Assembly (NCBI RefSeq): GCF_030128825.1
Contig: NZ_CP119127.1
Coordinates: 3,038,001-3,102,000 of the forward strand
Reading direction: 5' to 3'
DNA length: 64,000 nt
Origin: Sphingobium sp. WTD-1
GTDB taxonomy: Bacteria; Pseudomonadota; Alphaproteobacteria; Sphingomonadales; Sphingomonadaceae
The position numbers were made by a program, and so were the translations under genes. The number at the start of each line of letters is the position of its first letter. The first letter of the stretch is position 1. Under the pieces are notes generated by a model. That model did not search any database, was not told the DNA's origin, and worked only from the letters and a program-made list of their open reading frames with translations. Positions 6,494 through 54,714 of this stretch are shown one piece after another.

Positions 6494-6570
6494 GCACCCG
6501 TAGCTCAGCTGGATAGAGCATCAGACTACGAATCTGAGGGTCGGACGTTCGAATCGTTCCGGGTGCACCA
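6494..6570 (+). tRNA. tRNA-Arg (anticodon ACG), copy 1
   Basis: 77 nt with encoded CCA. The 7-bp acceptor (GCACCCG / CGGGTGC) is complete, the anticodon loop is CTACGAA giving anticodon ACG (A34 normally edited to inosine), and the T arm carries GTTCGAATC. It is identical base for base to the copy at 7251-7327. Confidence 0.96.
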
Positions 6571-7250: not shown

Positions 7251-7327
7251 GCACCCGTAGCTCAGCTGGATAGAGCATCAGACTACGAATCTGAGGGTCG
7301 GACGTTCGAATCGTTCCGGGTGCACCA
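7251..7327 (+). tRNA. tRNA-Arg (anticodon ACG), copy 2
   Basis: 77 nt, identical in every base to 6494-6570 including the encoded CCA. The flanking sequences differ beyond a few bases, so only the gene itself is repeated. Confidence 0.96.
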
Positions 7328-43967: not shown

Positions 43968-45140
43968 TCAGGACAGGCGGCCCTTGAAATCCGCGTAGGA
44001 AAAGCTGCGGATTTCCCGGAGTTCATCGCTCTGGGAATTCCACAGCCAGATGGCGGGCAGGGGCACGCCGTTGAAGGTGTTGGTCTTCACCATCGAATAA
44101 TGGGCCTGGTCCAGGAAGGCGATGCGCGCGCCCGCTTCGGCGCCGCCAGGCACCCGATAATCGCCGATGATATCGCCCGCCAGGCAGGATGGGCCGCCCA
44201 GGCGCGTGACCGGGCCGTCTTCCTGCTCATGCAGCATGGCGGGGCGATAGGGTGCCTCGATCACGTCGGGCATGTGGCAGGTGGCGCTGATGTCGGTGAT
44301 TGCGACGGCCATGCCATTGTCGATCACGTCGAGGATCTCGCCGACCAGGATGCCCGCATCGAGCGCCATCGCCTCGCCCGGCTCGATATAGAGTTCAAGC
44401 CCGGTCTGCGCCTTGATCGCCTGAAGGAAGGCGATCAACTCGTCGATCTGGTAGTCGGCGCGGGTGACATGGTGGCCACCGCCGAAGTTCAGCCATTTGA
44501 GGCCGGTAACATGGGGCATGACGAACGGCTCGATCGCCGCCCAGGTGCGCTGGAGCGGCAGGAAATCCTGTTCGCACAGATTATGGACGTGGAGGCCGTC
44601 AACGCCGTCCAGATGCTCTGCGCGCAACTGGTCGATCGGGAAGCCGAGGCGGCTATGCGGCTGCGACGGGTCATATTTGGGCACCTCGCCCTCCGGGTGG
44701 AGCGGATTGATGCGCAGGCCGATGTCGAAGATGCGACCTTCTGCGCGCGCGGCGTCGATCACCGGCTTCATCCGGGCGATCTGGCCAGGGCTGTTGAAGA
44801 TCACATGGTCGGAAATCTTGAGGATTTCGGCCAGATCGTCGGGCTTGTAGGCGGCGCAATAGGTCGCGACCTCGCCCTGATATTCCTCGCGGCCAAGCCG
44901 AGCTTCATAGATGCCCGAGGCGCAGACGCCGTCGAGATATTCGCCCAGCACGCCGCCCAACGACCACATGGAAAAGGCCTTGAGCGCGCCCAGCACCTTG
45001 ATCCCGGCGCGGTCGCCGATATCGCGCAGCACCGACAGGTTGCGCCGCACGGCGGCTTCATCGACGACGAAGGCGGGCGAGGGGACGCGGTACAGGTCGA
45101 AATGGGCGAAAGCGGCGGGATCGCCAGCCTTGGTTTCCAT
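43968..45140 (-). CDS. nspC: Carboxynorspermidine decarboxylase
   Basis: Fold III PLP decarboxylase converting carboxy(nor)spermidine to (nor)spermidine. 390 aa: PLP lysine in LGALKAFSMW (Lys54), HNLCEQDF, LNFGGGHHVT, EPGEA. ATG 45140 with CAGGAG about ten bases upstream. With ornithine decarboxylase and carboxynorspermidine synthase on the same strand it completes an aspartate-semialdehyde-dependent spermidine route. Confidence 0.92.
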   Translation of the reverse strand: METKAGDPAAFAHFDLYRVPSPAFVVDEAAVRRNLSVLRDIGDRAGIKVLGALKAFSMWSLGGVLGEYLDGVCASGIYEARLGREEYQGEVATYCAAYKPDDLAEILKISDHVIFNSPGQIARMKPVIDAARAEGRIFDIGLRINPLHPEGEVPKYDPSQPHSRLGFPIDQLRAEHLDGVDGLHVHNLCEQDFLPLQRTWAAIEPFVMPHVTGLKWLNFGGGHHVTRADYQIDELIAFLQAIKAQTGLELYIEPGEAMALDAGILVGEILDVIDNGMAVAITDISATCHMPDVIEAPYRPAMLHEQEDGPVTRLGGPSCLAGDIIGDYRVPGGAEAGARIAFLDQAHYSMVKTNTFNGVPLPAIWLWNSQSDELREIRSFSYADFKGRLS

Positions 45141-45147
45141 GAAATTA

Positions 45148-46239
45148 TTACTCCTGATCCGCCAGCGGGCGGACATCGTTGATCAGGGCCTTGAGGACCA
45201 GGCCGGGTTCCTCGACCATCGGCATATGGGCCGAATGCTCGAACCAGATGGTCTTCTTGGCGGGGGCTTTCAACCGGTCCATCCATTGCGCGGCGAGCGG
45301 CGAGGGCACGGTATAGTCGGTGCGGCCGAGCAGCATGATCACCGGCAGCTTCATCTCGTGAACCTTGGCGAAGCTGACATCGGCGACGCGCGGCCACATG
45401 GTCGTGGTCGAAAATTCGCTGCCCACGCCCCAGGCCTTGCGGTCTTCGGGCGTATAGTCGGGCGACAGGCGCGGCGTCTGGAAATAGAGCGTCGGGTCGG
45501 GCCGGTCGGCCATCAGCGAGCCGTAAGGAATGGCATAGCGGCGCCAGCCGTCCGCCTTGTCGATCGTGAACGGCCCGCTGGCGGGATAGGGGGCAAGCGC
45601 CTCGATCGCCTTCACGGCATCGGTGTTGCTGGCCTTCCTTGCCTGCGCGATCGTCCAGTCCATGCCCATGCGTTCGCCCGCGCGGAAGTCGATCGCCTGG
45701 CCCATGCCGACATAGGCATAGAGCAGGTCGGGCCGCTTGATCGCCACCGACAGGCCGACGGCGGAGCCCCAGCTATGGCCGAGCAGGAAGACCTTGCGCT
45801 TGCCATAGCGGGCCTTGAGATAGTCGATCAGTTCGATGGCATCGTCGCGATAGCGATCCAGCGTCATGGTCGGAGCGATCGCCTTGGGATCATTCAGGGC
45901 ATAGCTTTTGCCAGCGCCGCGCTGGTCCCACTGGACGACGGTGAAGAAATCCTCCCATGGCCGTTGGAACGACCAGGCGAAGGGCATTTCCACCGCGCCG
46001 GGGCCGCCATGGACATAGATAAGAATTGGGTTGGCGCGATCGGCGCCGCGCACATTGATCGCCTGCCGCGCGCCGCCCAAGGTCACGACCAGATTTTCCT
46101 GGACGCCATTCGGCGTCACGATCCGGTTGACGTCGGCGACGATTGCCTTGGCCGGGGCATAGGGATCGGCGGGCTGCTGCGCAGAAACCGGCGCTCCAAA
46201 AAGAGAAAGCGCCAGAACGGCGCTCATCAGCTTTCGCAT
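45148..46239 (-). CDS. Secreted alpha/beta hydrolase
   Basis: 363 aa with a signal peptide (LMSAVLALSLFGAPVSAQ). Proline iminopeptidase-like features: oxyanion motif VHGGPGA, WDQRGAGKS, and nucleophile elbow GHSWGSAVG, with a late His in FEHSAHMPM. It sits between the two carboxyspermidine genes, seven bases from nspC. Substrate unknown; a periplasmic peptidase or esterase is likely. Confidence 0.85.
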   Translation of the reverse strand: MRKLMSAVLALSLFGAPVSAQQPADPYAPAKAIVADVNRIVTPNGVQENLVVTLGGARQAINVRGADRANPILIYVHGGPGAVEMPFAWSFQRPWEDFFTVVQWDQRGAGKSYALNDPKAIAPTMTLDRYRDDAIELIDYLKARYGKRKVFLLGHSWGSAVGLSVAIKRPDLLYAYVGMGQAIDFRAGERMGMDWTIAQARKASNTDAVKAIEALAPYPASGPFTIDKADGWRRYAIPYGSLMADRPDPTLYFQTPRLSPDYTPEDRKAWGVGSEFSTTTMWPRVADVSFAKVHEMKLPVIMLLGRTDYTVPSPLAAQWMDRLKAPAKKTIWFEHSAHMPMVEEPGLVLKALINDVRPLADQE

Positions 46240-46274
46240 TCCATCCCCTCCATCATACCGCTGTCACGGATCAA

Positions 46275-46324
46275 CATGCCGCCCCACTCCTATGAACGCG
46301 AGGTTCAATGAGTGGAGCGGCATG
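46275..46324. other. Three-tier 50-nt hairpin
   Basis: CATGCCGC / GCGGCATG, CCACTC / GAGTGG and TGAAC / GTTCA stack as 19 base pairs interrupted only by small bulges, around a GCGAG loop. It lies between the carboxynorspermidine synthase stop and the hydrolase start. No T tract follows on the minus strand, so a plain terminator is not certain. Confidence 0.55.
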
Positions 46325-46340
46325 TGATATCGCGTGTCGC

Positions 46341-47546
46341 TTAGAAGGCCAGCGGCGCGTCCAGTTCCTTCACCTGCCAGGGCAGGCCATGCTTGTTCAG
46401 CATATCCATGAAGGGATCGGGATCGAACTGCTCGATGTTGAACACGCCTTCGCCCTTCCAGGCGCCGGTCAGCATCATGGCGGCGCCGATCATCGCCGGC
46501 ACGCCGGTGGTGTAGCTGACAGCCTGGTTGCCGGTTTCGGCATAGGCGTCCTCATGGTCACAGACCTGATAGATATAGACGGTCTTTTCCTGACCATCCT
46601 TCTGACCGGTCGCGATGTCGCCGATATTGGTCTTGCCCTTGGTGGTCGAACCCAGGCTCGACGGTTCAGGCAGAACCGCTTTCAGGAACTGGAGCGGGAT
46701 GATTTCCTGGCCATTATAGATGACCGGATCGATCCGGGTCATGCCGACATTCTGCAGCACTTCGAGATGCTTGAGATAAGCGTCGCCGAAGGTCATCCAG
46801 AAGCGGATGCGCTTGATTTCGGGATAGTGGGTGGCGAGGCTTTCCAGTTCCTCATGATACATGAGGTACATGTTCTTTTCGCCGACCTGGTCGAAGTCGA
46901 ACACCTGCTTGTGGCTGAGCGCAGGGCCTTCGACCCATTCGCCGTTCAGCCAGTGGCGCGACGGGGCGGTCACTTCGCGGATGTTGATTTCCGGATTGAA
47001 GTTGGTGGCGAAATGCTGGCCATGGTCGCCGCCATTGCAGTCGAGAATGTCGAGCGTGTCGATCGTGTCGAGCAGATGCTTCTTGATATAGCTGGCGAAG
47101 ACGCTGGTGACGCCCGGATCGAAGCCCGAACCCAGCAACGCCATGATGCCGGCTTCCTTGAAGCGTTCCTGATAGGCCCACTGCCAGCTATATTCGAACT
47201 TGGCGGTGTCGCGCGGTTCGTAATTGGCGGTGTCGAGATAGTCGGTCTTGGTCGCGAGGCATGCGTCCATGATCGCCAGATCCTGATAGGGGAGCGCCAG
47301 GTTCACGACCAGCTTGGGCTGGACCTTCTGGATGAGGGCGATGGTCTCTTCGACATTGTCGGCATCGACCTGGGCCACGTCGATATCCACGCCGACCAGC
47401 TTCTTCACCGATTCGGCGACCTTCTCGCAGCTGACGATGCGGCGGCTGGCCAGCGTGATGTGGCTGAAAATATCAGGGTTCATCGCCATCTTGTGGACCG
47501 CGACAGACCCGACGCCGCCTGCGCCGATGACCAGAACCTTGCTCAA
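46341..47546 (-). CDS. Carboxynorspermidine synthase (saccharopine dehydrogenase-like)
   Basis: NADPH-dependent condensation of a diamine with aspartate beta-semialdehyde to carboxy(nor)spermidine. 401 aa; Rossmann start SKVLVIGAGGVGSVAVHK, ASRR, and GSGFDPGVTSVFA. TTG 47546 is chosen because GGAG lies eight bases upstream and it begins the Rossmann fold; the open frame extends to 47648 without a plausible start. With nspC this makes spermidine when putrescine is the substrate. Confidence 0.9.
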   Translation of the reverse strand: MSKVLVIGAGGVGSVAVHKMAMNPDIFSHITLASRRIVSCEKVAESVKKLVGVDIDVAQVDADNVEETIALIQKVQPKLVVNLALPYQDLAIMDACLATKTDYLDTANYEPRDTAKFEYSWQWAYQERFKEAGIMALLGSGFDPGVTSVFASYIKKHLLDTIDTLDILDCNGGDHGQHFATNFNPEINIREVTAPSRHWLNGEWVEGPALSHKQVFDFDQVGEKNMYLMYHEELESLATHYPEIKRIRFWMTFGDAYLKHLEVLQNVGMTRIDPVIYNGQEIIPLQFLKAVLPEPSSLGSTTKGKTNIGDIATGQKDGQEKTVYIYQVCDHEDAYAETGNQAVSYTTGVPAMIGAAMMLTGAWKGEGVFNIEQFDPDPFMDMLNKHGLPWQVKELDAPLAF

Positions 47547-47694
47547 TTCAACTGCTCCATAACTGTGGTCGCGCCGGACGCGCGAAAGCGCCCATATAGG
47601 GGCGTCGCGTGACAGAGCAAAGTCAGAGTTAGAAGCGCGCTCCGTCAATCTTCCGGATGGTCAGTGCTTCAGTATCGATCGCATGCACGCATCG

Positions 47695-47756: not shown

Positions 47757-48413
47757 CTAGGCGGCGTGGACAAATTTGAGCCAGTATCTGGCGGTTGCGA
47801 TATGAACCATGCCGAGGAAGCTATTGGCCAGTTGGTCGTAGCGGGTGGCGATGGCCCGGTTGATCTTGAGGTGGCCGAACATGCGCTCGATGCGGTTTCG
47901 CTGCTTGTAGAGCGTGCGGTCATGCTCGATCTTCACGCGGCGGTTTGACCGGCCGGGAATGACAGCCTCGATTTTCCGTTCGGCAAGGTCGGCACGGATG
48001 GCGTCGGCGTCGTAGCCCTTGTCGGCAAGCAACGCGAGCGGTGCACGCTCGGGCAGGCCGATCAGTGCATCATAGGCTTTGCAGTCTGCCGCCTCGCCGA
48101 CCGTTAGATGGAAGGCGAGCGGTCGTCCGAGGGCATCGGCCAGGCAGTGAAGCTTACTGGTGAACCCGCCCCGCGAGCGACCAAGAGCGCGTCGATGAGT
48201 CCCCCTTTTCCGCCCGCTGCCGAGACGTGCGCGCGAACTGTGGTGCTGTCGATACTGTAATGGCCGCTGTCCGCCATGATCTCGGCCAGCGTCACGGCAA
48301 CGGTCTCCCAGACCCCGGCTTCGCTCCACCGTCGGAACCGGCGATAGATCGTGTTCCAACTGCCATATTTGGGCGGCACGTCGCGCCACGGAGCGCCGCA
48401 GCGGAGCCGCCAC
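47757..48413 (-). CDS. IS5-family transposase, C-terminal frame
   Basis: Second reading frame of the transposase. The translated part after the frameshift contains SRGGFTSKLHCLADALGRPL, ALLADKGYDADAIR (second Asp of DDE) and YKQRNRIERMFGHLKINRAI (Glu), ending KFVHAA. Its TAG stop is made by the flanking CTAG target duplication (47757-47759). The frame starts upstream only because it is open; translation should enter by a -1 shift from the first frame. Confidence 0.88.
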   Translation of the reverse strand: MAAPLRRSVARRAAQIWQLEHDLSPVPTVERSRGLGDRCRDAGRDHGGQRPLQYRQHHSSRARLGSGRKRGTHRRALGRSRGGFTSKLHCLADALGRPLAFHLTVGEAADCKAYDALIGLPERAPLALLADKGYDADAIRADLAERKIEAVIPGRSNRRVKIEHDRTLYKQRNRIERMFGHLKINRAIATRYDQLANSFLGMVHIATARYWLKFVHAA

Positions 48414-48538
48414 AGAATGCCGTTGATAATTGAGCGGTTTTGCTCGGGCGGCCTGCCTCGACCACGGTTTTCAGGCTCGATGGGCAACAAGCCCTTCAGA
48501 ACCCGCCATTCTGCTTCAGTAAGATCGCCCCTGCTCAA
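48104..48538 (-). CDS. IS5-family transposase, N-terminal frame
   Basis: First transposase frame: LTEAEWRVLKGLLP, GRGRPPEQNRSIINGILW, RCGAPWRDVPPKYGSW and the first catalytic Asp in YSIDSTTVRAH. TTG 48538 begins the conserved region; the frame is open to 48568. A run of A4G5 (minus strand, 48201-48209) lies where the -1 frame becomes the conserved one, which is a likely ribosomal slippage site. Confidence 0.85.
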   Translation of the reverse strand: MSRGDLTEAEWRVLKGLLPIEPENRGRGRPPEQNRSIINGILWRLRCGAPWRDVPPKYGSWNTIYRRFRRWSEAGVWETVAVTLAEIMADSGHYSIDSTTVRAHVSAAGGKGGLIDALLVARGAGSPVSFTAWPMPSDDRSPSI

Positions 48539-48601
48539 GCCTGCCTCCAAAAGACAGCCTTGAATCAACCCGCTTGCGAACCGTCAATGACCCTTATGCA
48601 G

Positions 48602-48877
48602 CTAGCGAGGGAAAGAAACGGCCTCGCTGACACCCTCGTCCGTGAAACCGCGTTCCGCGCGGTTATGCGGCGTGGCGTCGCTGGTCCAACTCCGAAGTTG
48701 CGGCTCATCGCGTTGCAAAGCGATCCAGAGGTCCTCGCTGACATCAGCAACCATATGCGTCATTTCACGGATACGGCTCCATCCAGAGCTAACGCTCATG
48801 ATGGCGTTCCCTTCGCCTTCAGCGCGACGAATAATGCGCTGGATCGCAATCGAATCTGCCAAGATCAGGCCCTCCAC
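48602..48877 (-). other. Leader of the IS with doubtful 91-codon frame
   Basis: Upstream of the transposase inside the element. A 91-codon frame (starting MEGLILADSIAIQRIIRRA) has no recognisable domain. Two hairpins lie within it: AGCGAGG / CCTCGCT at 48604-48628 and AACCGCG / CGCGGTT at 48646-48664. It may be a passenger gene, a remnant, or only structured leader RNA. Confidence 0.3.
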
Positions 48878-49419
48878 TGACGCGCAGACCCTAGATGCGT
48901 CGGTGACTGAGGGAAACCAACATCAAGCCGGAATTTGTCCACGCCGCCTAGCGTCATTGCGCCAATCGCGGCTGCGGCAATCGCGCATAGGAGAACGGCA
49001 CCGGCTGCCACATCCTTGACGCGCTTCACTGTGGGGTGGCGCGCCTGATGCACCAGATTGCAGAGTTGCTCAATGGCCGTATTGCCGGCCTCTGCGGCCC
49101 AGACGAGACCAATCGAGAGGATCAGCCAGCGCCAGTCAGAAAGGCTGATGTGCAACATCAGACCTGCGCCGATGGCGGCTGCTGATGCCGCGAGATGTAT
49201 CCATGCATTATGTTCATGGCGAACGAGATACCACAGTCCTTCCACGGCATAACCGATACTTCGTGCCCTGGCAGACAGGCTGAAACCGGGATGGGAAGGG
49301 CCGTTCATGAGTGTGGCGTCAGGCCGCCAAGCCAGCGGGGATGCGCGACGAGAAAGGAGACGACGCCACGGCCAGCAGGTGAGGGTCAGCAATGCGGCAA
49401 AGAGGGCGCAGCAGATCAT
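48865..49419 (-). pseudogene. dgkA: DgkA-type lipid kinase, 3' end replaced by IS
   Basis: Diacylglycerol/undecaprenol kinase family: three membrane helices and the signatures AWIHLAASAAAI, AEAGNTAIEQLCN and KRVKDVAAGAVLL. Native codons end at 48951; the IS supplies a foreign tail (GGVDKFRLDVGFPQS...) to a stop at 48865. All three helices remain, so the product may still work. ATG 49419 is adopted, just after the upstream gene; ATG 49308 gives the more typical short DgkA. Diacylglycerol or polyprenol could be the substrate. Confidence 0.8.
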
Positions 49420-49429
49420 GGCTTCATAC

Positions 49430-51307
49430 TCATGCAAGCAGTGTGATTGTCAGAGCTGTGCGGCCGGTCAGATTGACGGCCAAGCTTGCTTCGCCCGTTG
49501 CTCCTGCTTGAATGATGCTTGGTGCGGGGCCTGCAACGCGATAGCGACGCTCCGGCTGCAGCCCGGCGAGACGAATGAGTTGAAGGCGGTCGAGGCCACC
49601 TGGATAGAGAATGAGGGTCAGGCCGCCATCCTCTGCAACGGCGCGTGCCACCAGCACGGCAGGGTAGCAGGCTTCGGCGAGATAGGGGCCTGCGCCAGCG
49701 CCGGATTTGGCCATGACAAGATCGGCAAGGCCATTGCGATGGTTGCACAAGGCTGAAAATTCCAGCGCATGCGCCCAGAGCGAGGCCCGAGGCCGATGGC
49801 GAACCCCATCAATGAGTATCTGTGGGCATTGCTCGTCGAGCATTGCGAGCATGGCCGCCGCACTGTCGCCGTCGCCCATTTCCGTTGCGGCCGCTGCGCT
49901 GGCTGCCAGGCTTGATGCACGGGAGAATCCATAATTGCCGACATCAATGGGCCAGAAGGTACGGTTCCAGTTGGTCCGGTCCAGACGTGCCCGGACCTGT
50001 GCCCACTGTTCTTGGGCCAGATCGGGAAAAAGTGTATTGAGGAACAGGCAGGGAAAGGCCTGCATGACGATACCTCCGGCCATCGGCATAGCCATTCCGG
50101 TGAGGCTCGATCGGAACGGGACTATCCGGCCATCGCTGGTCATGAATTCGTTCAGGAGGCCGTTACGGAATGTCGGTGCGATCGCATCCCAATCGGAAGC
50201 GTCGGAGTGCGCATCGGCAGTGCGAATGGCAGCGGCCGTGATCAGATTGCAAAGTGGGTAGATCCAATTGGGCTCGCAGGCCAGCAGGCCCCAGGGCGAT
50301 GCCCGATACTGCTCGACAAGTTGGGCCACGAGCGAGAGAAAATCATAGCTGGACCGTTGCTTGCCGATACGCAGATCGAGATGGTCGTCCTGAGCGATCG
50401 TCCTTCCGCCTGCTGCCTGTGCGAATGCGATCTGCGCCGCGACGAAGCCGCTATACATGATGTTATCGCGCGACACCGGATTGGTGGACCAGCGCAGATG
50501 GCCCCACAGGCTTTCCAGCAGCCAATAGCGCCACATGCGGGGATCGCTCTGCTTGGCGAGCAACTTGCGCTGGGCTTCGAACATATAGCCGGTAAATGCC
50601 GGCATGACATGCGCCTGCGACAGCGAAAGGGCATAGGACAGGAAGTTGAGTTGATAGCGTACGGCCGCTGTCTGGAACTGGTCGCGCCATTCAAACCCCT
50701 GGAACTCCTCTACTGGCTGGAGGGCGCGGTCAAGCAACAGCCGCTGAAGTTGCAAGGCGGAGATATCCAGTTCGGCAGGGCGGGGAGGGGCAGCGAGCGC
50801 GGGAAACGAGGTTGAAACTGCTGGCCGCTTGCCGCCCCGCGTGATCCGCAGCGCCAGCGCGAAAGTCGCGGGCATGATGCTGGCGACAAGCAGCAGGTCA
50901 AGAACGGCGATCGGCGGGATGGTATGATTGTCGGAGAGAAAGGCGGCGATGCCGGCGCTGCCGATCCACACGAACAGCGGCGCCAGAACATTACCTGTCC
51001 CGAACCACAGGATGAGGGCGGCCAGAAACATTGCCACTGCTCCACATATGGCAATGGCGGGGGCGAAGGCATCTGCGCCCACGCATATCGGCGCGCCAAA
51101 ACCGGCGCCCGGAGCCATGATGCCCAGCCCGAAAGCCAGCATCGTCGTGGACCGGGCGGTGATCGCGACGGCTAGTCCAATGGCGGCGATCGAAAGTAAT
51201 GCAGCTATTGTCTGGCGCTGCCGATACAGCGTCAACGGCGCATTGCTCCAGTTATTTAAATAACTTTGCAATGCAAAGTTTACGGGTAAATGAAAGGCAC
51301 GCCTCAT
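49430..51307 (-). CDS. Membrane-fused linalool dehydratase/isomerase-like protein
   Basis: 625 aa. Residues 35-160 hold about four membrane helices; from about 200 the sequence follows the linalool dehydratase/isomerase (Ldi) pattern: FTGYMFEAQRKLL, DPRMWRYWLLESLWGHLRW, SRDNIMYSG, and CEPNWIYPLC, whose two Cys (344 and 353) keep the nine-residue spacing of the catalytic pair in Castellaniella Ldi. Ldi acts on allylic monoterpene alcohols; this substrate is unknown. ATG 51307 overlaps the regulator stop (ATGA). Confidence 0.75.
   Translation of the reverse strand: MRRAFHLPVNFALQSYLNNWSNAPLTLYRQRQTIAALLSIAAIGLAVAITARSTTMLAFGLGIMAPGAGFGAPICVGADAFAPAIAICGAVAMFLAALILWFGTGNVLAPLFVWIGSAGIAAFLSDNHTIPPIAVLDLLLVASIMPATFALALRITRGGKRPAVSTSFPALAAPPRPAELDISALQLQRLLLDRALQPVEEFQGFEWRDQFQTAAVRYQLNFLSYALSLSQAHVMPAFTGYMFEAQRKLLAKQSDPRMWRYWLLESLWGHLRWSTNPVSRDNIMYSGFVAAQIAFAQAAGGRTIAQDDHLDLRIGKQRSSYDFLSLVAQLVEQYRASPWGLLACEPNWIYPLCNLITAAAIRTADAHSDASDWDAIAPTFRNGLLNEFMTSDGRIVPFRSSLTGMAMPMAGGIVMQAFPCLFLNTLFPDLAQEQWAQVRARLDRTNWNRTFWPIDVGNYGFSRASSLAASAAAATEMGDGDSAAAMLAMLDEQCPQILIDGVRHRPRASLWAHALEFSALCNHRNGLADLVMAKSGAGAGPYLAEACYPAVLVARAVAEDGGLTLILYPGGLDRLQLIRLAGLQPERRYRVAGPAPSIIQAGATGEASLAVNLTGRTALTITLLA
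51262..51280. promoter_or_regulatory. Operator-like palindrome inside the start of the Ldi-like gene
   Basis: A perfect 19-bp palindrome AACTTTGCA-A-TGCAAAGTT. Its core matches the palindrome at the operon promoter (52296-52310) except at one base. It lies in codons 9-16 of the Ldi-like gene. Confidence 0.55.
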
Positions 51308-51675
51308 ATCGGCTTCTCCGAAAACGTCGGCGCTGATGCGGTTGCCTTGGAAGTTGCTTGTGAAGCCTTTTTGAGGACTTGTTCGAGCACCGTCAGATAG
51401 TCGCCGAAACGGCGAAGCCCTTCTTCGGTCAGCTTGCAACGGGTATGCGGGCGCCTGCCTTCATAGCCCTTCTCCAGAGCAACGAACCCTGCCTCTTCCA
51501 ATAGCTGAAGGTGACGGCTGAGATTGCCATCCGTCAGGCCGCAAAGCGATTTGAGGTCGGCAAAGCCAAGGCCGTCGCCATGGCCGGCAAGAGACGTCAC
51601 GATGCTCAGCCGTGCCTTCTCATGAAAGATGCGATCAAGGCCTTCATAGGCATAAAGACCCGCAGGCCCCGCCAT
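51304..51675 (-). CDS. Winged-helix transcriptional regulator
   Basis: 123 aa ArsR/MarR-like winged helix: RLSIVTSLAGHGDGLGFADL, recognition region LTDGNLSRHLQLLEEAGFV, and wing YEGRRPHTRCKLTEEG. No metal-binding Cys cluster of ArsR type. The ATG at 51675 overlaps the stop of the upstream membrane gene and its stop overlaps the Ldi-like start, so three genes are translationally linked. Probably binds the two CTTTGCA palindromes. Confidence 0.82.
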   Translation of the reverse strand: MAGPAGLYAYEGLDRIFHEKARLSIVTSLAGHGDGLGFADLKSLCGLTDGNLSRHLQLLEEAGFVALEKGYEGRRPHTRCKLTEEGLRRFGDYLTVLEQVLKKASQATSKATASAPTFSEKPI

Positions 51676-52283
51676 CACTGTTTCTCCGATGCGCGCTGAA
51701 GCAGGGATGCCATGAGGAGTTGGCCGCCTCCAAAGGGGAGGCCCATCATCCATGGCGTTGCCATATGATCCTGTCCTGCAAGCACAAGGACGATAGTTGC
51801 GCAGAGTAGATACCAGCCGGCCACCCATGCGACTGTCTGCGGCAGGTTTGTAATGGCAGCGGTAAAGGCCAATAGCGCGATCAGCATCTGCCACAGGCCC
51901 GGCAGCAGCCAGTAGACTTCGGGTGCAGTATGCAGCAGGACCAGTGTGAGAAGACCGCCGACCGCACCGAAAGGAACGAACAGGCGTATGGTGCTGCCCA
52001 TCATCAAGTCGGCCATGTTGCCATGTAGCCGATGCGAGCGACCGAAGGCTTCGATCGCGATTGCGATCGCCGCGATCGCACCGACAATTGTCCAGAACAG
52101 CACGAATCTTGCTGGATTACCGGAAAAGTACGCAGGCCAGGTCATCTGGGAAAAAGCGGCTGCCAGAGCGAGCATGCCCGTTCCCGCTACGGCTTCCGGG
52201 GCAAGCCCCCTGAACCGAATGCTCGCAGTCATCTGTGTCCGTATGTCAGCCAGTTGGGCCAGGGCACGATCTACGTCACTCAC
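51675..52283 (-). CDS. Polytopic membrane protein, first gene of the Ldi-like operon
   Basis: 202 aa with about six membrane helices (for example FVLFWTIVGAIAAIAIAIEA and VAWVAGWYLLCATIVLVLAG) after a soluble N terminus (SDVDRALAQLADIRTQM). GTG 52283 is selected because AAGGAG lies nine bases upstream; ATG 52292 overlaps that site. Membrane proteins of this sort often pair with winged-helix regulators. Function unknown. Confidence 0.75.
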   Translation of the reverse strand: MSDVDRALAQLADIRTQMTASIRFRGLAPEAVAGTGMLALAAAFSQMTWPAYFSGNPARFVLFWTIVGAIAAIAIAIEAFGRSHRLHGNMADLMMGSTIRLFVPFGAVGGLLTLVLLHTAPEVYWLLPGLWQMLIALLAFTAAITNLPQTVAWVAGWYLLCATIVLVLAGQDHMATPWMMGLPFGGGQLLMASLLQRASEKQ

Positions 52284-52295
52284 AACGCACATCTC

Positions 52296-52327
52296 CTTTG
52301 CAAGGCAAAGTACATTGCTGTGCAATG
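52296..52327. promoter_or_regulatory. Tandem operator palindromes before the Ldi-like operon
   Basis: CTTTGCAAGGCAAAG (52296-52310) is followed after two bases by CATTGC-TGT-GCAATG (52313-52327). Both are palindromic; the first shares 14 of 15 bases with the core of the palindrome at 51262-51280. They overlap the ribosome site and upstream region of the first gene, suiting autorepression. Confidence 0.6.
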
Positions 52328-52408
52328 AAGTCAAGGGTCGCCCCTGCTTTCAATCTGATCGGCGGCCTGTGCTTCTCCTGTCCCGACATCGGCATTGATT
52401 GGGTGTAG
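52325..52408 (+). CDS. Possible 27-residue peptide
   Basis: An ATG-started frame (MKSRVAPAFNLIGG, then two Cys two residues apart, ending in DIGIDWV) runs toward the cupin/GNAT genes. There is no good ribosome site, and the ATG lies inside the operator. It could be a modified-peptide precursor or chance. Confidence 0.2.
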   Translation: MKSRVAPAFNLIGGLCFSCPDIGIDWV

Positions 52409-52693
52409 CGAAAATTCAATAATTTCTTTGTTGCTGTGAATCAATCGTACCGTATATGCATGGAAACACATTGGAAATAAATGTGTATATTTATTTGCAA
52501 TTCCGTATTAATGGAATTCCATTTTATGGTGGCAGGGATTTGTTGTGTTGAAATTCGTGTGATGTCATGAATTTTTCATTGGAGTATGATCGGGCGATAT
52601 TTAAAGATTGAAATTTCTTGTTTAACGTTATTTTCAATTTTCAGCGACAAATTTGAAAGCAATCACTCTTGCCGTCGTAGAAGAATAGCAGCC
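52409..52693. other. AT-rich intergenic region
   Basis: About 285 bp much richer in A and T than its surroundings. It contains the palindrome ATGGAATTCCAT (52511-52522), and several TATATT-like hexamers that could serve divergent promoters. No gene with a ribosome site is visible. The composition suggests acquired DNA or a regulated promoter. Confidence 0.5.
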
Positions 52694-53530
52694 ATGTCGT
52701 TCCTTGCCGCGTCCAGCCTTGCTCCTTTTTCAAGCGCTTATCCCTTGTCTCCGACAATGCTGACGCACGCTCTGAGGGGGCATTCGCTGTTGTCATGGGA
52801 AGCGCTGGCGAAAGCGTCCCTCGAACTGCCGCCGCAATATGTCGAGCGCCGCATCGGTAACGCTCCAAATGGCGGCATATTTGCGATGGACCAATCGGAC
52901 CATGCCGATGTCGCAACCGTCATTCGCTCGATCCATGGCAGCGGTAACTGGATCATGTTGCGCTTTGTCGAGCAATTGCCAGCCTATCGCGATCTGCTGG
53001 ATAAGTTGATGGAGCAGATCGGGCCGGCCATTGCCCCCGCGACAGGGCCAGCCCTGACCGTGAGAGGGTTCATCTTCATTTCTGCGCCGGGAACGCTGAC
53101 TCCGTTCCACTTCGACTGCGAATATAATATCCTCTTGCAGATTGCGGGCGACAAGCAATTCGCGACCTATCGCCCCGTTGCACCATGGTTGCCGCATGAC
53201 CGGCACGAGGCATATTATGGCGGCGGCGACAATATGCTGCCCTGGAACGACGCCTATGAGGTCGAGGCAAACATCCATCATCTGCGACCGGACGATGCGC
53301 TGTTCATCCCCTATGCGTCCCCGCATTGGGTGAAGGCCGGTGCCGAGCCATCCATCTCGCTATCCATCACGTGGCAGAGCGAATGGAGCCAGGCGCTCGG
53401 TGATGCCATGCAGGTCAATCCGTTGTTACGGCGATGGGGGTTGCCAACCGGTGCTGTGCCGGGGTGGCCAAAGACGGCCAAATGGCGTTCGCTTGGCTGC
53501 CGCGTGGCGCGCAAGGCGGGGTTCTTATGA
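52694..53530 (+). CDS. JmjC/cupin-8 Fe(II)/2-oxoglutarate-type oxygenase
   Basis: 278 aa. The iron-binding triad is visible: His139 and Asp141 in TPFHFDCEYN, and His211 in ASPHWVKAG; GDNMLPWNDAYEVE lies between. Members hydroxylate or demethylate protein or small-molecule substrates. ATG 52694 has no strong ribosome site. Its stop overlaps the GNAT gene in an ATGA, so the two products probably act together. Confidence 0.78.
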   Translation: MSFLAASSLAPFSSAYPLSPTMLTHALRGHSLLSWEALAKASLELPPQYVERRIGNAPNGGIFAMDQSDHADVATVIRSIHGSGNWIMLRFVEQLPAYRDLLDKLMEQIGPAIAPATGPALTVRGFIFISAPGTLTPFHFDCEYNILLQIAGDKQFATYRPVAPWLPHDRHEAYYGGGDNMLPWNDAYEVEANIHHLRPDDALFIPYASPHWVKAGAEPSISLSITWQSEWSQALGDAMQVNPLLRRWGLPTGAVPGWPKTAKWRSLGCRVARKAGFL

Positions 53531-54714
53531 GCCATCTGCCTGCGGCGAGTAGCTTTCATGTGGCCACCAGCCGCATATGGCCGATGGCAGGTACTGATCA
53601 GCCTATAGTGCGCATTCTGCGTCATGCCGATCTGACGGCGGGTGATCGCGCGCATTGGGCGGCCTTGTCTGCATTGGCCGGGGCAGCCAATGTCTTTGCG
53701 CAGGATTGGTTCATGCAGGCAGCGCTGAGTCACGATGATGGCCGCAGCGACGAGGTACTGTTGGTCGTCGTCAGCCCGGTCGACGGGCCATGGCTGGGCG
53801 TCATGCCATTGATCGCTGAGCGGGGCTTCGGACGCTGGCGCGTGCGTGTCTGGCGCAATTGGTCGGCGACGAACCAGTTTTTGGGTACGCCGCTGGTGTC
53901 CGCGCAATCTGCTGACATCTTCTGGGACAAGTTGCTGGCGTTCCTCGATCAGCGCACAGGCGCCGAGATCATGCTGCATTTCGAGCGTTTTGACGCTGAT
54001 GATCCGGTCTGCATCGCCTTGTTCGACCGTTGCAAGCGGGAAGGGCGCGGGTTTCACGCCATCCATTGCCATGATCGTCCGGCGCAGCGCGCAGGAGAAG
54101 ACGTTCAGGGCCGCAGCGACGCCAAGATCCGCAGCCGACTACGGAGTCTGCTGAAGCGGCTCGAACAGGAGCATGGGCCGGTTGCGATCGGCATCCTCGA
54201 CCCAGGTGAGCCTTGCCTTCCCTGGATTGACACATTCCTAGAGATGGAGGCCGCAGGCTGGAAGGGACGTGGCGGCAGCGCATTGGGTAATAATTGTGCG
54301 ACTGAAGGCCTGTTTCGCACGGTTGTCGCGCGCGGTCATGCCAATGGTAGCGCACGGCTTGCGACCCTTTCGGTCAATGGCCGTGCGATTGCCATGTCGA
54401 GTTGGTTTGAATCCGCAATCTGGGGCCATGGTTTCAAAATGACCTTTGACGAGGAATATCGCCCTTATGCTCCGGGTCAGTTGCTGATGCGCGCCGTCAG
54501 GGACACGATCGCGCACCGAACCGATATGTCTTTCGATACCTGCGTCCCACGTGATGCCAGTCACTGCCACAGCCTTTGGCAAGGCAACAGAAGGATTATC
54601 GATGGTGTGGTCGCCATCGGTTCTCCATGGCAACGGCTTCATTTTGACGCGCTGATCAGGGCACGAGCAGCCTATGGGGCGGTTAAGGCTCGCCTTTCCG
54701 GTCGCCGACCTTAA
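53527..54714 (+). CDS. CelD/BcsL-like GNAT acyltransferase
   Basis: 395 aa of the FemAB/CelD-like GNAT type: two acetyltransferase-like halves with KIRSRLRSLLKRLEQEHGPV, EMEAAGWKGRGGSAL and WGHGFKMTFDEEYRPYAPGQLLMRA spread along the sequence, the last resembling the acyl-CoA core. Substrate unknown; such enzymes modify polysaccharides, lipids or peptides. Coupled to the JmjC-type gene. Confidence 0.75.
   Translation: MSHLPAASSFHVATSRIWPMAGTDQPIVRILRHADLTAGDRAHWAALSALAGAANVFAQDWFMQAALSHDDGRSDEVLLVVVSPVDGPWLGVMPLIAERGFGRWRVRVWRNWSATNQFLGTPLVSAQSADIFWDKLLAFLDQRTGAEIMLHFERFDADDPVCIALFDRCKREGRGFHAIHCHDRPAQRAGEDVQGRSDAKIRSRLRSLLKRLEQEHGPVAIGILDPGEPCLPWIDTFLEMEAAGWKGRGGSALGNNCATEGLFRTVVARGHANGSARLATLSVNGRAIAMSSWFESAIWGHGFKMTFDEEYRPYAPGQLLMRAVRDTIAHRTDMSFDTCVPRDASHCHSLWQGNRRIIDGVVAIGSPWQRLHFDALIRARAAYGAVKARLSGRRP

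Follow-up and report, generated by a model that had tools for sequence, protein, structure and literature searches.

A conserved operon linking a membrane-fused Ldi enzyme to a DAGK_prokar kinase in Sphingobium sp. WTD-1, with a possible role in isoprenoid-alcohol phosphorylation

What would a bacterium do with an operon that couples an enzyme of the linalool dehydratase/isomerase (Ldi) family to an integral-membrane lipid kinase? The question is raised by a 64,000-nt stretch of Sphingobium sp. WTD-1 (GCF_030128825.1, NZ_CP119127.1, positions 3,038,001–3,102,000 of the forward strand), termed here the window, whose numbering we use unless a locus is named. On its minus strand, from 52283 down to 48865, lie four genes, for a membrane protein, an HTH_34 winged-helix regulator, a membrane-fused Ldi and a DAGK_prokar kinase. 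The operon is real, conserved and patchily spread, and in one relative it is plasmid-borne. Among the explanations that we weighed, the best fit is a regulated pathway of isoprenoid-alcohol isomerase and kinase that probably leads to polyprenyl phosphate; we put its probability at roughly 0.4.

The operon and its membrane-fused Ldi

The genes are tightly packed. The membrane-protein gene (51675–52283, 202 aa) begins with GTG, an ATG at 52292 being a possible alternative, and its TGA overlaps by one base the ATG that opens the regulator gene (51304–51675, 123 aa; PF13601 at 75.3 bits against a cut-off of 27). The regulator and Ldi genes (the latter 49430–51307, 625 aa) overlap by ATGA, and 10 bases separate Ldi from the kinase gene (48865–49419, 184 aa; PF01219 at 109.7 bits). 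An earlier note, made from the sequence alone, had described this order, spacing and domain content correctly; its extent of 48865..52327 holds at the kinase end and takes in upstream sequence at the other. The Sphingobium sp. WTD-1 genome has one Ldi copy, and the kinase is its sole DAGK_prokar match. Three sampled genomes of the same genus gave no Ldi match at E ≤ 1e-20 and no membrane-protein match at E ≤ 1e-8.

Ldi matches PF18566 over residues 217–510 at 242.2 bits (cut-off 26.1). The motif CEPNWIYPLC (50249–50278, minus strand; residues 344–353) carries C344 and C353, corresponding to Cys170 and Cys179 of LinD and invariant in all 73 sequences of our set A2. The predicted structure matches the LinD-like (alpha/alpha)6 fold, with N-terminal membrane helices, the Ldi domain at about 174–537 and a C-terminal beta domain at 541–625; hydropathy peaks and helices fall within residues 25–156, and we infer that the Ldi domain lies on the cytosolic side. 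A single-sequence phmmer search of the Protein Data Bank (PDB) with Ldi returned nothing at E ≤ 0.001, and the LinD match needed a profile. Domain, cysteines and fold are thus those that the earlier note expected. The membrane fusion in itself is no novelty, since Lis of Thauera linaloolentis is already a membrane-fused Ldi, acting on linalool and geraniol (PMC4791888).

Neighbourhoods of the Ldi and kinase genes

One scan supplied a neighbourhood set of 31 named loci. In 21 of them (L002–L022) a kinase gene follows Ldi on the same strand, with an extra small open reading frame (ORF) between the two in L014 and L015; no kinase was seen after Ldi in L023–L032. Most of the Ldi-kinase loci are from alphaproteobacterial records; three are beta- or gammaproteobacterial, and one is in a metagenome-assembled genome labelled Anaerolineae. 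DAGK_prokar is rare, occurring in 10 of 199 genomes of the host's family and once in the host itself, so this recurrent gene order is not due to chance. Nine of the 21 loci, and plasmid pAU20b in addition, also have the membrane protein and regulator upstream, bearing out the expectation that homologues would keep this company in other genomes. Ldi itself is sparse: at E ≤ 1e-60 it was found in 2 of 385 genomes of the class, 150 genomes of the Methylotenera family held only the known case at E ≤ 1e-50, and 249 genomes of the Uliginosibacterium family yielded the Uliginosibacterium genome plus three Lis-like sequences.

An unrooted tree of 43 Ldi sequences, from which L031, L034 and L036–L038 were omitted as duplicates or near-duplicates, is divided by a branch with 100% support into 23 kinase-linked sequences (the window, the 21 loci and the plasmid) and 20 others. 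A kinase gene accompanies all 23. The flanks of the 20, some of about 1.5 kb or less, gave no kinase match, and neighbours annotated or tested in that clade include carboxyltransferase, aldehyde dehydrogenase and P450 genes. This split bears on whether the operon might be a catabolic linalool isomerase operon like that of Thauera. The architecture would suit, because Lis likewise joins membrane helices at the N-terminus to an Ldi domain at the C-terminus, but the window Ldi belongs to the other side of the split, and the carboxyltransferase, aldehyde dehydrogenase and P450 genes lie beside the Lis-like L105, L107 and L082 and not beside the kinase-linked loci tested. We regard a catabolic operon as very improbable.

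A clue to the substrate comes from relatives in which a UppS-type gene lies between the regulator and Ldi genes: L004, L006, L008, L011 and plasmid pAU20b. PF01255 scores this gene at 260 bits in L004 and 243 bits in L006, and a query with the second UppS (UppS2) matches all four loci; whole-genome search showed the operon gene to be the second UppS over the cut-off in each of these four genomes. On the plasmid, which comes from Aureimonas sp. AU20, all five genes are annotated (the count covers the plasmid alone), and its UppS aligns to that of E. coli. A second UppS occurs in 5 of 19 genome handles, two handles being one genome. Its addition to the operon in relatives suggests that the product, made or salvaged, is probably an isoprenoid alcohol in phosphorylated form; a polyprenol is the most likely one. 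As far as sequence can tell, the isoprenoid substrate is the most probable step of the proposal, while a C55 length and the salvage direction are less probable.

The same enzymes could instead serve short-chain salvage or detoxification, turning linalool- or nerolidol-type alcohols from outside into geraniol or farnesol and phosphorylating these for re-use or so as to trap a compound active on membranes, with terpenols releasing the regulator. The substrates of Lis fit such a role, as do the retained active-site cysteines of Ldi, and a linalool kinase has been mentioned for Thauera as a second, conceivable route (PMC4847356). UppS2 partners, however, build chains rather than take alcohols up, and among 20 proteins near kinase-linked loci that we compared with Pfam (three without a family) there was no terpenol dehydrogenase or CoA-pathway enzyme. 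Short-chain use is therefore unlikely in our view.

Some relatives add a B12 radical S-adenosylmethionine (SAM) gene. The second UppS of M. halotolerans stands elsewhere in its genome, in the order membrane protein, regulator, UppS, BchE-like radical SAM. A BchE-like gene also follows UppS2 in L094, and another B12 radical SAM gene does so in L097; in Methylotenera a BchE-like gene directly precedes Ldi, and fragments follow the kinase gene in L010. BchE-like genes adjoining UppS2 or Ldi map to L068 5562–7133 (−), L094 4085–6346 (−), L017 6310–7863 (+) and L098 6265–7833 (−), the last from an Asticcacaulis genome in which the gene is on a different contig from Ldi. Those of L068 (537 bits) and L017 (519 bits) pass the BchE cut-off of 481 bits; in these organisms photosynthesis is presumably not to be expected, and the genes may represent a separate enzyme. 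One candidate radical SAM-Ldi fusion (P0020) was set aside as an apparent chimeric assembly, its Ldi part ending mid-domain.

Such neighbours suggest a polyprenoid membrane lipid, whose UppS2-made chain would be modified by the BchE-like enzyme and Ldi, yielding for instance a tertiary alcohol or terminal diene, with the kinase recycling the alcohol. The interconversion of myrcene and linalool by LinD (PMC6600392) also speaks for it. Radical SAM genes are nevertheless confined to 3 of 18 Ldi-carrying genomes (E ≤ 1e-60), Sphingobium sp. WTD-1 not being among them, and we judge this lipid quite unlikely to be the product.

Around the operon in the window, divergent genes for a cupin-like protein (Cupin_8, below cut-off) and a GNAT protein (Acetyltransf_6) adjoin it at 52586–54714 (+). 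A little downstream of the kinase gene are two overlapping ORFs in different frames (47757–48568, −), which resemble the two halves of an IS5-type transposase; the pair agrees with a mobile history of the region. Farther on, a series of decarboxylase-like, alpha/beta hydrolase-like and saccharopine-dehydrogenase-like ORFs (43968–47648, −) resembles polyamine genes of the carboxynorspermidine type. Two tRNA-Arg (acg) genes, at 6494–6570 and 7251–7327, share a strand and have some 680 bp between them.

Shared palindromes and the regulator pair

Two predicted operators mark the window operon. Operator 1 (ACTTTGCCTTGCAAAGG, 52295–52311) is just upstream of the membrane-protein start, and operator 2 (51263–51279), the perfect palindrome ACTTTGCATTGCAAAGT, lies within the Ldi reading frame at its 5' end. 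A first scan of the window, with AACTTTGCNNNGCAAAGTT, had given a perfect copy at 51262–51280 and a weaker one at 52294. The 17-base form was sought, allowing up to 3 mismatches in 14 positions, in 16 loci (the window, L002–L006, L008, L009, L011, L012, L068, L080 and L094–L097): 14 had two copies, and L009 and L080 only the second. With L128 of genome G068, which has a single copy before the membrane-protein gene, the palindrome is present in 17 of 17 loci that have the membrane protein and regulator, and precedes the membrane-protein gene in 15. At the loose threshold of 3 mismatches there were five extra matches elsewhere in the loci, all with the lowest score, which is also the score of two counted sites (the first of L068 and the second of L009).

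Positions of the palindromes relative to the genes are informative. In 11 of 14 loci, against 0.77 expected, a TTG lies 23–25 bp ahead of the first palindrome; in the window it belongs to a −35-like hexamer, TTGACT (52329–52334, minus strand), 23 bp before operator 1. This spacing would put the palindrome over the −10 element of a putative promoter, where a bound protein would repress. The second palindrome has the uppS ATG at its centre in all 10 UppS loci. Where Ldi comes first, the central triplet is TTG (window), ATA, TCG or ATG, and in L012 a TTG that is out of frame with Ldi. Since the next gene starts at the palindrome centre in the UppS relatives, Ldi may start at TTG 51271, giving a product of 613 aa.

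We scanned 20 genome handles for the palindrome with at most one mismatch and compared coordinates by hand (G361 is the genome of G206). The 15 distinct genomes with the module contain 26 places. Of these, 25 lie at the module or precede Ldi, and the remaining one is in another part of G201; G205 has none. A backwards control pattern matched once in the 20 handles, in G201. Four genomes that have the Ldi-kinase pair and no module in the examined stretch contain three places, none adjoining Ldi. In M. halotolerans, two palindromes stand just before the Ldi-kinase pair, far from the regulator-UppS module, and no other observation speaks as strongly for linking Ldi-kinase with UppS. In L010 a palindrome stands before Ldi at the contig edge, and other loci show scattered matches at 3–4 mismatches. 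We also considered two roles in RNA. An RNA hairpin was rejected because sense-strand variants with C opposite A suit a DNA site better, and attenuation because intrinsic terminators just before operator 2, though present at 3 of 16 loci where 0.03 were expected, are too few. The palindrome makes the regulon open to direct test.

The 202-aa membrane protein is a multi-helix protein assigned to no known family. Its AlphaFold2 model (pLDDT 89.4) has six helices of at least 19 residues and matched nothing in the PDB at E ≤ 0.001; its homologues number 79 at E ≤ 1e-5. It was found in six of the 385 class genomes, two of these being Ldi operons; in the other four, with no Ldi there, the order is invariably membrane protein, regulator, UppS. 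Three of the 199 genomes of the host's family have it, two in Ldi operons and the third being G068. PADLOC matches of the regulator to Csa3-type proteins concern the winged helix and are weak, and we took them as generic.

The UppS genes and the shared palindrome strengthen the isoprenoid-alcohol pathway that the earlier note had proposed, whose substrate, direction and kinase action on isoprenols are putative.

The kinase, the proposed pathway and known systems

In the kinase tree, a clade with 97% support unites E. coli DgkA with six of the eight other family kinases and leaves out the 23 Ldi-linked kinases; of the remaining two, L073 falls among the Ldi-linked ones and L072 next to the E. 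coli clade. The label DgkA-type thus applies to the window kinase by family and not by clade. Of 18 positions reported to affect catalysis in DgkA (PMC4703834), 16 were compared across the 23 kinases. The equivalents of E. coli Gly20, Glu69, Asn72, Glu76, Lys94 and Asp95 are invariant, whereas Ser17, Glu34 (to His), Gly83, Ser90 and Gly97 are altered in all 23. Ser17 and Ser98, described as lipid-contacting in DgkA, are Ala in Ldi-linked kinases; two members of the E. coli clade, L074 and L075, also have Ala, so the change is no test of substrate. A single-sequence phmmer search of the PDB with the kinase found nothing at E ≤ 0.001. An E. coli-type role is less likely for the window kinase, though sequence does not settle its substrate.

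Two kinases from other bacteria offer a comparison. That of Parabacteroides (L100 1495–2434, +) shares the EHNAWIH motif of the window kinase and has a PAP2 phosphatase immediately after it; the two may be a polyprenol kinase-phosphatase pair. That of Collinsella lies between ybeY and era, an order known for Gram-positive undecaprenol kinase. Both are on the Ldi-linked side of the 97% split, their own placement being weak (20% and 51%), and the Collinsella kinase, our sole stand-in for Gram-positive UdpK, joins the E. coli side at 51%. A pentachlorophenol-induced dgkA of Sphingobium (PMC6247019) was considered and has no connection to the locus in the text available.

In the isomerase-kinase pathway that we favour, the membrane protein and regulator would sense a signal. 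The regulator would bind both palindromes and thereby repress at the operon −10 as well as at the start of the enzyme gene. After its release, Ldi would interconvert the tertiary and primary forms of an allylic isoprenoid alcohol by moving the hydroxyl between C3 and C1, the reaction that Lis carries out with linalool and geraniol. The kinase would phosphorylate the primary alcohol at the membrane face, drawing the reaction towards polyprenyl phosphate, the lipid that carries envelope polymers. With UppS2 the chain would be built de novo; in Sphingobium sp. WTD-1, whose single UppS is outside the operon, the Ldi-kinase pair would salvage an existing alcohol. A fuller version, a switchable Gram-negative polyprenol cycle in which an Ldi-family allylic mutase converts tertiary undecaprenol-type alcohol to the primary form, a polyprenol kinase refills the carrier pool and the repressor also controls a second UppS, we consider doubtful.

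Several observations weigh against the pathway. Sphingobium sp. WTD-1 has no UppS2 in the operon or the genome. The B12 radical SAM or DUF4153 gene of some relatives would be superfluous for simple salvage, and 12 of the 21 Ldi-kinase loci have no membrane protein and regulator in the examined stretch, several of them being short contigs. The active-site His128 of LinD aligns with Phe288 of the window Ldi, and the assays of LinD and Lis used C10 alcohols; the reaction could therefore be a different one. In G068, at L128 6637–10884 (+), the membrane protein, regulator and one palindrome are followed by genes for a VIT-domain protein and an exosortase, with neither Ldi nor UppS there; the switch is therefore not isoprenoid-specific and may serve other envelope functions too. 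The window kinase has the E. coli letter at 8 of the 16 mutation-sensitive positions. Asp80, called critical in DgkA (PMC4703834), is Asn in 7 of the 23 Ldi-linked kinases including that of the window, which makes the favoured pathway slightly less and a plain diacylglycerol kinase slightly more likely.

That last alternative would have an ordinary diacylglycerol kinase and an Ldi with an unrelated substrate, joined solely through an envelope regulon. The DAGK_prokar family includes diacylglycerol kinases, and the exosortase locus fits a broad envelope regulon. The 97% split that sets all 23 Ldi-linked kinases apart, the presence of a kinase gene with every Ldi of the clade and the UppS genes in the same operons argue the other way, and we hold this alternative distinctly unlikely.

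The bond of this clade of membrane-fused Ldi with a lipid kinase, and partly with UppS, would point to a second role for Ldi, in the synthesis or rescue of isoprenoid lipids. It is a large family: of 7996 candidates scored, 711 were homologues at E ≤ 1e-10, clades mixed. To our knowledge the characterised Ldi-type enzymes, LinD and Lis, both belong to monoterpene metabolism. Our literature searches, mostly of open-access text, found no system of this composition and nothing that pairs linalool dehydratase with diacylglycerol kinase or undecaprenyl; a search for uppS2 with undecaprenyl returned nothing on this subject by title.

Lis of T. linaloolentis 47Lol is the closest in build, at 644 aa against 625, but its setting differs. 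The lis gene is part of the atu catabolic cluster, with gaps of more than 150 bp to its neighbours, and the available text of its reports mentions no kinase alongside (PMC4791888, PMC4847356), whereas the window Ldi adjoins one. Lis-like sequences have Trp in place of Phe288 in six of eight cases; we counted L105 among them by its AtuC-sized carboxyltransferase upstream, the Thauera protein not being matched by name. LinD of Castellaniella defragrans is periplasmic, with a capping Cys48-Cys101 disulfide and His128, while the window Ldi has a membrane domain, Phe288 and, at the position of Cys101, Asp255; none of the 73 sequences has Cys there. The sequence alignment to LinD behind these equivalences stops short of the region with the active-site residues Asp38 and Tyr44. 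The kinases keep conserved residues of the DgkA/undecaprenol kinase family (PF01219) and stand as a separate clade from DgkA. UppS2 passes the uppS cut-off of TIGR00055 (110 bits) with 250 bits in L004 and 226 bits in L068; it is closest to PRK14839, slightly under that model's cut-off (326 and 333 against 334), and is tied to the HTH_34 regulator and the palindrome.

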